From: Streptosporangiaceae bacterium
GTDB taxonomy: Bacteria > Actinomycetota > Actinomycetes > Streptosporangiales > Streptosporangiaceae
DNA: 5,730 nucleotides
Direction of reading: 5' to 3'
Assembly: GCA_025934635.1 (NCBI GenBank)
Contig: JAICWX010000457.1
Span: 1-5,730 of the forward strand
The position numbers and the translations under genes were made by a program. This document shows, piece by piece, positions 2,747-4,294 of the stretch (position 1 is its first letter; every line of letters begins with the position of its first letter). The notes beneath the pieces are model-generated. The model was not told the origin of the DNA. It did no database searches and worked only from the letters and a program-made list of their open reading frames with translations.

Positions 2747-4294
2747 ATGTTCGATATCGAGGAGCCCGGCCTAGCTCCCGGCAACCCAGTCCCCGGCAGC
2801 GCGGTTCCGGCTGCGCCCTCAGACCCGGTGCCGCTCGAGCGGCTGGAGGCACAGCTGTGCGAGGTGGCGGGTCACCTGGCCGCGGCCACCTGCCGGTTCC
2901 TGGTGCTGCTGGCCGAGTTCGACGACCGTCGCGGCTGGGCCAGCTGGGAGCTGAGCAGCTGCGCGGCATGGCTGTCGTGGAAATGCCAGATGTCCTCCGG
3001 TACCGCCCGGGAGCATATCCGGGTCGCCCGCGCCTTGCGGGACCTGCCGGTGATCCGCCGGGAGTTCGCGGCGGGCCGCCTGTCGTATGTCAAGGTGCGG
3101 GCGCTGACCCGGATCGCGACGGCGGCGAATGAGGCGGGCCTGGCGGAGATCGCCGGGCCGATGACCGGGAACCAGCTGGAGCGGTTCGCCCGGGCGCACC
3201 GGCAGTGCTCCCCGGCTGATGACGCCGCGGCCCGGGTCCGCCGCCGCCTGACGTGGCGGTTCGAGGAGGACGGGTCGCTGGCCGGGACGTTCCGGCTGCC
3301 GCCGCTGGCGGGCGCGGTGCTGCTGAAGGCGCTGCGGGCCGCCGCCAGCCACGAGGATCCCCCGCCAGCCGGCGTTTCCGCGGAAACGCCCCCGCGGCCG
3401 GGAGACCGGGTAGTCGCGACGTCGCCGGACCTGGCCGATGCGCTGGTGGTGGTGGCGGAGTCGTTCCTGGCCGGGAAGATCGCCGGGGCCGATGACGCGG
3501 AGGTCTACCAGGTCGTCCTGCACGTCGGTGCCGGCGTCATCCCGGAGGACGGCGTTTCCGCGGAAACGTCCCCGCCTGGTCCGCGGGATCCAGCCCATCC
3601 GGCCGATCCGGCCCGGTGCCACGTCGAGGACGGCGCCGCGGTGCCCGTCACCACCGCCGACATGGTCGGCTGCACCGCCGCGCTGTCCTGGATGACCCAC
3701 GCCGCCGGCGGCGCCGTCCTGAACCTCGGCCGCCGGCGCCGCCGCCCGAACGCGGCGATCCGCAAGGCCGCCCGCGAACGCGACCACGGCCGCTGCCGCT
3801 ACCCGGGGTGTGAGTCCCGCCGGGTCGACCTGCACCACATCCGGCACTGGAGCAACGGCGGTCCGACCAGCCTGGACAACCTGGTCAGCTTGTGCAAGTT
3901 CCACCACACGGCCGTCCACGACCGCGGCTGCCTCATCGTCGCCCGCGACGACGGCACTTTCGCGTTCTGCGCCCCCGGCGGCACCCAGATACCGCCCAGC
4001 CCCGCCCTGCACAAGCCAGACGGCGGCATCGCCGATGTCCACGATGCCGCGATCACCCCGGGCACGATTACCCCGCCGTGGTACGGGGAGCGGCTGGACC
4101 TGGATTACGCCATCTACACCTGCCTGGCCAACGAGCAGGTCCGCCGGGACCGCGAGGCGGGCCGTGACACCCGCCCCAGCGGCTCCGGGGCCACGGTCTA
4201 CGGACCCCTGGACCCCGACCAATATGCCCGGCTCCGCGAGCGCCTGGCCGGGCCGCCCACCTACCGCCCCGTGCAAATCCCGATCCAGGTGTGA
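2747..4294 (+). CDS. DUF222 domain-containing HNH endonuclease-like protein (13E12 family)
   Basis: The 515-residue protein has the two-part architecture of the actinobacterial DUF222/HNH (REP13E12-like) family, often present in many copies per genome. The helical DUF222 part spans about residues 28-325. It includes FDDRRGW (58-64), WLSWKCQMSSGTAREHIRVA (75-94) and FAAGRLSYVKVRALTRIA (107-124). A basic stretch (RRRRRP, 329-334) precedes the HNH domain: CRYPGC (350-355), DLHHIRHWSNGGPTSLDNLV (361-380) and LCKFHHTAVH (382-391). C350, C355, C383 and H386 could form a zinc site; H363/H364, N378 and H387/H391 are the HNH residues, all intact, so nuclease activity is plausible but unproven. The cellular role of the family is unknown to me. 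A C-terminal tail of about 110 residues is less conserved. GVSAET occurs twice (209-214, 269-274), encoded by a palindromic DNA repeat. It sits between housekeeping genes, suggesting an acquired or duplicated family member. Confidence 0.92.
   Translation: MFDIEEPGLAPGNPVPGSAVPAAPSDPVPLERLEAQLCEVAGHLAAATCRFLVLLAEFDDRRGWASWELSSCAAWLSWKCQMSSGTAREHIRVARALRDLPVIRREFAAGRLSYVKVRALTRIATAANEAGLAEIAGPMTGNQLERFARAHRQCSPADDAAARVRRRLTWRFEEDGSLAGTFRLPPLAGAVLLKALRAAASHEDPPPAGVSAETPPRPGDRVVATSPDLADALVVVAESFLAGKIAGADDAEVYQVVLHVGAGVIPEDGVSAETSPPGPRDPAHPADPARCHVEDGAAVPVTTADMVGCTAALSWMTHAAGGAVLNLGRRRRRPNAAIRKAARERDHGRCRYPGCESRRVDLHHIRHWSNGGPTSLDNLVSLCKFHHTAVHDRGCLIVARDDGTFAFCAPGGTQIPPSPALHKPDGGIADVHDAAITPGTITPPWYGERLDLDYAIYTCLANEQVRRDREAGRDTRPSGSGATVYGPLDPDQYARLRERLAGPPTYRPVQIPIQV
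3371..3395. repeat. Palindromic repeat copy 1, inside the DUF222-HNH gene
   Basis: Positions 3371-3390 form a perfect 20-base palindrome with core CGTTTCCGCGGAAACG (3373-3388). The trailing bases to 3395 are also shared with copy 2; over 25 bases the copies differ only at 3389/3569. In frame it reads GVSAET then P. It lies in a proline-rich linker between two conserved DUF222 stretches. The use of GTT and GAA, uncommon codons in this GC-rich gene, keeps the symmetry intact. Confidence 0.85.
3551..3575. repeat. Palindromic repeat copy 2, inside the DUF222-HNH gene
   Basis: This is the second copy, exactly 180 bases (60 codons) after the first and in the same phase, again encoding GVSAET, followed by S instead of P. 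One base (T at 3569) breaks the outer symmetry, giving a G-T mismatch with 3552 that would be a G-U pair in RNA. The 16-base core palindrome 3553-3568 is perfect. The flanks outside the 25-base unit do not match copy 1, so this is not a segmental duplication. Confidence 0.85.

Follow-up and report, generated by a model that had tools for sequence, protein, structure and literature searches.

The ParB-parS system acts in chromosome segregation and the Noc-NBS system in nucleoid occlusion, and KorB, a ParB relative and repressor of plasmid RK2, acts at its operators as a repressor. Here we describe twin palindromes inside the reading frame of a DUF222-HNH nuclease gene in a stretch of DNA from a Streptosporangiaceae bacterium (contig JAICWX010000457.1; the whole stretch of 5,730 nucleotides is called the window), and compare them with these systems and with described repetitive elements. 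The palindromes are probably recognition sites of about 20 bp with dyad symmetry (GRC-GTTYCCGCGGRAAC-GYC) for the product of the gene in which they lie. No function is stated for DUF222 in Pfam, and none of the searched literature that names DUF222 also names a helix-turn-helix.

By direct reading, the two palindromes belong to 25-base units that are identical at 24 of 25 bases, start 180 bp apart and stand in phase 0 of the open reading frame (ORF) 2747-4294, where GVSAET is encoded twice. As an earlier note on this DNA had described, one copy is a perfect palindrome of 20 bp and the other has a perfect core of 16 bp (Table 1). The note had put the chance of one such 20-bp palindrome well below one in a hundred; in 400 runs of a first-order Markov model of the window, 4 gave a longest palindrome of at least 20 bp, which makes it about a 1-in-100 event. 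The point made in the note that a second, nearly identical copy is no independent event stands. Its further remarks on the copies hold as well: the flanks diverge (86% identity over a longer 35-bp register), both copies lie within stretches of pLDDT <50 in the AF2 model, in linkers that are hypervariable in relatives, and their codons are atypical, since GTT serves for 3 of 37 Val and GAA for 3 of 27 Glu in the gene, with two of each inside the copies. Copy spacing has no periodicity (133 pairs of copies, p 0.75), so the helical phasing that a fixed DNA loop would require is absent.

Copies of the gene in relatives carry GTTTCCGCGGAAAC (TT form, read as VSAET) or GTTCCCGCGGGAAC (CC form, read as VPAGT, both halves changed), and sometimes the one-sided GTTCCCGCGGAAAC. 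In a set of 74 distinct DUF222 ORFs, V[SP]A[EG]T is encoded at 25 places; exact palindrome codons are used in 20 of them and other codons in 5, each palindrome codon set being expected at a frequency of 3-6e-4. Two of these 20 copies precede a probable start codon (residue 117 of L001 and residue 4 of L096), further copies precede the gene in L219 and L107, and elsewhere copies occur outside predicted coding DNA. A site within one mismatch is present at 18 of 20 loci of the gene family. Linker 1 of the distant relative L006 (39% identity) holds a 20-bp palindrome, CGCGGTTCCGCGGAACCGCG, read as RGSAEPR, and that of L008 (31% identity) a 22-bp palindrome, GGAGTCTTCACGTGAAGACTCC, which includes the parS core TTCACGTGAA and is read as ESSRED. 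Because these palindromes and the double-changed forms encode different peptides, dyad symmetry persists while the peptide changes, and by this sequence pattern the palindromes are DNA sites rather than a conserved peptide. No palindrome of the L006/L008 kind lies inside the gene at the distant loci L003, L004 and L009, and L002 has the TT form at a place other than linker 1. The palindrome was found at none of 30 loci of general DUF222 genes; the feature is therefore confined to one branch and a few distant genes.

The peptide was followed in two protein searches. Among the best 120 of 3901 passing proteins in the first search (window protein included), 119 contain a SAE[TA] string and 82 of those 119 contain two; all are VSAET-like and within hypervariable linkers, except one chance string (P0080). 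The second search, with a VPAGT-type relative as query, gave 117 new proteins among the matches listed (P0121-P0237), with VSAET 87 times, VPAET 28, VPAGT 27, VSAGT 3 and VPVGT once; the motif is missing from 25 of these 117, and its positions shift. In both sets of listed proteins together (237), the frame 0 reading occurs in 352 motifs of 210 proteins, the other frames are represented by FRGN and FPRE, each once and close to the N-terminus, and FPRK and SRGN, also other-frame translations of the palindrome, do not occur. VPAET is far more frequent than VSAGT (28 against 3 in P0121-P0237) although the same DNA change on opposite half-sites produces them, and a preference at the peptide level is likely to add to the DNA constraint.

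This inequality, and the presence of VSAET at another conserved place in L002 (HVSAETSKRLACDA), would agree with selection on the peptide VSAET, which the earlier note had offered as an alternative cause. As the main cause it is close to negligible in probability, since symmetric double changes alter the peptide (VSAET to VPAGT) and leave the DNA symmetry, the L006 and L008 palindromes encode different peptides in the same linker, each peptide has one codon set in 20 of 25 copies, and copies occur ahead of start codons and in intergenic DNA. The same counts bear on a hairpin acting in the messenger RNA or as an intergenic terminator, an explanation that we consider highly improbable: stem changes are compensated and some intergenic copies are terminator-like (aaaaagcGTTTCCGCGGAAACgctttttt in L209, similarly L211), but C-A mismatches (VPAET, 28) outnumber U-G intermediates (VSAGT, 3), whereas an RNA stem would favour the latter, the central CGCG, an unpaired loop in such a hairpin, is kept in both common forms, and the fixed reading frame and place inside a gene do not suit terminators. 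Copies in G321 and G408 (L209 1885, L211 503 and L207 162) read like agcGTTTCCGCGGAAACgctttt, as intrinsic terminators do, and these two genomes may mix two uses of one palindrome.

The palindromes are over-represented in some genomes. Among the 297 genomes of the family of G001 (the genome of L001), exact GTTTCCGCGGAAAC has 73 matches in 25 genomes, and the control, the same letters reversed and itself a palindrome, has 1; the counts are concentrated in G098 (11), G082 (10), G001 and G007 (8 each) and G143 (5). GTTCCCGCGGGAAC has 67 matches in 29 genomes, led by G019 (24), G133 (6) and G167 (5); its control gives single matches in nine genomes, so CC-form singletons are near background. Lone exact matches in many genomes were not counted as elements, since some of them apparently encode ordinary peptides (GVPAGTVKSR in L144) or form hairpins. 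TT-rich and CC-rich genomes are mostly mutually exclusive, and the form inside the gene is the dispersed form in G001, G098, G143 and G058 (TT) and in G019, G133, G167 and G152 (CC), with disagreement in G021. On the DnaE tree, from which G001 and G082 are absent for want of a DnaE match, the placed TT-rich genomes fall in two clades and the CC-rich in one; because of this clustering, the agreement of forms comes partly from shared descent. At least three exact sites occur in 11 of 15 family genomes with the gene and in 3 of 282 without it, the in-gene counts to be subtracted having been set manually for each locus (one G007 site, which lies ahead of its gene piece, was left in, and this does not affect the comparison). 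Class-wide, 13 of 394 genomes carry the TT form (G408 12, G321 8, G001 8, G314 4, G355 2 and eight with one; control 1), and in the four site-bearing genomes covered by the class-wide search for the gene, relatives are present in G408 (E 1e-103), G355 (1e-101), G314 (4e-47) and, as a fragment, G321 (1e-32). In viral contigs, 19 stretches contain the 16-mer in varied ORF contexts; plasmids gave no match by distant blastn. The refuting condition set in the earlier note did not overturn a DNA-level element: the note had held that a core not over-represented, with the peptide kept at both positions without DNA symmetry, would speak for the peptide.

The protein itself suggests a reader for such sites. 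With moderate confidence, based on predicted structures and profile alignment, we assign the DUF222 N-terminus to the ParB/Noc/KorB-type DNA-binding domains; the predicted structure contains a ParB-type helix-turn-helix, and a deeper profile aligns with ParB in hhalign at E 1.2e-4 (the first, shallow profile was weak, with probability 2.7% and E 0.017). Foldseek alone gave no match with E <0.001 for either structure model. Like parS and NBS, for which excerpts of PMC7383237 supplied the comparison sequences, GTTTCCGCGGAAAC contains TTTC-N4-GAAA, and it is a candidate site for this domain; the likeness to ParB-parS and Noc-NBS thus covers the predicted fold, the profile similarity and a palindrome of 14-16 bp. 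The differences are that ParBc, the N-terminal ParB/Srx CTP-binding domain, gives no Pfam match among the 91 members even with E allowed to reach 10 (HMMER filters drop many weak matches), that only about 28 residues precede the ParB-like domain, of which 1-14 are disordered, and that the DUF222-HNH system has an HNH nuclease, a site centre of CGCG and sites inside its own gene. KorB differs from DUF222-HNH in having no nuclease and a different operator sequence. No clean determinant was found among residues that might specify the TT or CC form; the count for R88 from that comparison was not used, as the row filter demanded an R-E pair at 88-89 and was circular. L008 (site at 3890) is the sole row of alignment A3 without Arg at the R88 position, and its site has no G at position 1; from the sequences, this residue and site base 1 are a possible specificity pair.

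The site shape was derived from 108 non-redundant sites, taken from the window and from 22 selected genomes; those lying within 20 bp of the end of a locus were omitted. The consensus given above is conserved over about 20 bp, with clear pairing as far as flanking base 3, a slight excess over chance at bases 4-7 (e.g. 40 against 31 expected) and chance level beyond. Such a profile suits a compact protein site better than a long mobile element. Composite A-B-A units occur in some of the genomes: of the 13 distinct GCAATTGC octamers in the loci examined from site-rich genomes, 12 are separated from a CCGCGG-type core by exactly 18 bp, and the A sites repeat at 36-38 bp. Most of these loci (233,577 bases including overlaps) had been selected because they contain an A site, which makes closeness partly expected but not the fixed 18 bp. 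In L047 (1501-1551), L056, L074-L078, L181-L185 and L188, GCGCAATTGCGC and the CCGCGG-type palindrome follow each other in alternation, exactly 18 bp apart, and the same group has CTTGTG-N-CACAAG as another middle, in 38-bp units; some outer sites are reverse complements of each other. In L081 around 2001 (G098:C14), the core is, by reading, central in a perfect palindrome of >40 bp.

As a sequence pattern, sites have also spread in frame to other genes. A glycosyltransferase gene of G019 (L063/L173, G019:C42) holds an array of 12-residue V[SP]A[EG]T units (36-bp period) in one linker, with one further motif copy in a second linker in its family, and 39 of the 120 listed proteins of that family (P0238-P0357, query included) have the motif. 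In-frame sites are also found in ORFs of L074 and L076. Similar membrane-protein genes have the palindrome at the same linker place, as CC in L171 (G001:C652) and as TT in L076 (G007:C529), and an ORF of L177 (1501; G133:C553) that resembles the MDMPI-type neighbour in the window contains an in-frame VPAGT palindrome.

These composite units and arrays, together with the absence of the motif from the other 81 of the 120 glycosyltransferase proteins, would suit a dispersed palindromic repeat family, moving by itself or by another enzyme, for which the DUF222-HNH gene is merely a favoured, tolerant landing place. We regard this as unlikely, as conservation covers only about 20 bp with slight excess symmetry at flanking bases 4-7 and unshared flanks, and random landing does not explain sites at 18 of 20 gene loci and diverged palindromes in the same linker of distant genes. 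REP/BIME elements with their RAYT enzymes share dispersed palindromic units, mosaic A-B-A arrangements and sites next to the gene for the enzyme that presumably acts on them; here, however, the associated gene encodes an HNH nuclease with the units inside its reading frame, and the RAYT-type Y1 transposase (PF01797) was found in one of 12 site-rich genomes (G082), in a search where fragmented assemblies, as most of the site-rich relatives are, may miss genes. The window sites (GTTTCCGCGGAAAC) do not fit the LexA/SOS box, with the consensus TCGAAC-N4-GTTCGA; in L004, TCGAACAATTGTTCGA (2073-2088), just upstream of a DUF222-HNH match, resembles an actinobacterial LexA box. The mycobacterial 13E12/REP13E12 family has the same domain pair and is repetitive, with a link to LexA (excerpts of PMC10589994 and PMC4181829), but these excerpts describe no self-embedded palindrome. 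The likeness to Rickettsia palindromic elements drawn in the earlier note stands for a DNA-level unit that is over-represented in some relatives and lies in frame in linkers and in an unrelated gene; it fails as a close likeness, the Rickettsia elements measuring about 150 bp (excerpt of PMC10969869) against about 20 bp conserved here.

The palindrome is of the size that regulators recognize, and copies lie upstream of several genes (L096, L098/L001, L107, L219) and outside predicted genes, as would be expected if another DNA-binding protein specific to the lineage, such as a ParB/Noc paralogue or a regulator, used it as an operator or nucleoid-type site, with the DUF222-HNH gene as a target. 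This is quite unlikely: HTH_ParB searches gave one clear match in 9 of 10 rich genomes and two weak ones in G143, with no extra ParB paralogue seen by that model, the site centre is CGCG where parS has ACGT, and sites concentrate in the DUF222-HNH family across divergent lineages.

We therefore prefer the reading that the earlier note had listed as an alternative, a site recognized by the encoded HNH protein. As in the recognition of parS by ParB and of NBS by Noc, the two half-sites would be contacted by a dimer of the ParB-like domain, and the bound DUF222 domain would deliver the fused HNH nuclease to the DNA. Copies would be kept upstream of the gene and inside it, in disordered linkers and one reading frame, with GVSAET mainly a by-product, and within the same lineages the site family would also have reached intergenic DNA and the linkers of a few further genes. 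Because sites lie both upstream and in the gene, self-limiting transcription is suggested: most likely, the everyday role of the copies would be to let the product occupy the promoter region and gene body and so impede further transcription, much as KorB acts at its operators. Since the catalytic residues are intact, DNA might also be cut at the site or beyond it; the catalytic and zinc residues His363, His364, Asn378, His386, His387, Cys350, Cys355 and Cys383 are invariant in 91 rows of alignment A2. More tentatively, the protein may be a self-targeting nuclease, a ParB/Noc-like reader fused to HNH that cuts or nicks its own palindromes, with in-frame spread by cut-and-repair between alleles or paralogues, which would make the linkers hypervariable and drive gene and site through populations in a homing-like manner, with the target lying within the gene that is being spread.

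Table 1. Features of the DUF222-HNH gene in the window
Feature	Position	Strand	Remarks
DUF222-HNH nuclease gene	2747..4294	+	515 aa; Pfam DUF222 E 2.2e-8, HNH E 2.9e-7
ParB/Noc/KorB-like DNA-binding domain (predicted), residues 28-156	2828..3214	+	predicted structures, profile alignment
Linker 1, residues 202-230	3350..3436	+	predicted disordered (pLDDT <50); hypervariable in relatives (alignment A1)
Palindromic site 1, GGCGTTTCCGCGGAAACGCC	3371..3390	.	perfect 20-bp dyad; 3371-3388 read as GVSAET
Linker 2, around residues 262-288	3530..3610	+	predicted disordered (pLDDT <50 for 247-348); hypervariable in relatives (alignment A1)
Palindromic site 2, GGCGTTTCCGCGGAAACGTC	3551..3570	.	perfect 16-bp core CGTTTCCGCGGAAACG at 3553-3568; 3551-3568 read as GVSAET
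HNH nuclease domain, residues 349-393	3791..3925	+	PF01844; nearest solved sequence match IscB HNH, E 1.6e-4

By Pfam, the window encodes a lspA-type peptidase, a RluD-type pseudouridine synthase, a MDMPI-type protein, the DUF222-HNH protein and the start of dnaE. Its closest genome by DnaE is G040 (86% identity; 28 genomes placed), and the clade of G040 on the DnaE tree includes four genomes with a related DUF222-HNH gene. Near the lspA start (446-463) lies a GC-only palindrome of 18 bp, which is probably due to chance at a window GC of 71%.

The assignment of the DUF222 N-terminus as a predicted ParB/Noc-type DNA reader, together with a concrete 20-bp candidate site in the gene, turns a family without known function into a testable one. 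If the gene carries in-frame sites for its own product, it would have an unusual design in which a coding sequence doubles, in one reading frame, as operator or nuclease target. If the self-targeting mechanism is true, the many DUF222-HNH proteins would be an unrecognized class of ParB-derived nucleases with lineage-specific parS-like sites. Most likely, DUF222-HNH proteins read these palindromes; a domain so far without an assigned function would thereby gain one.
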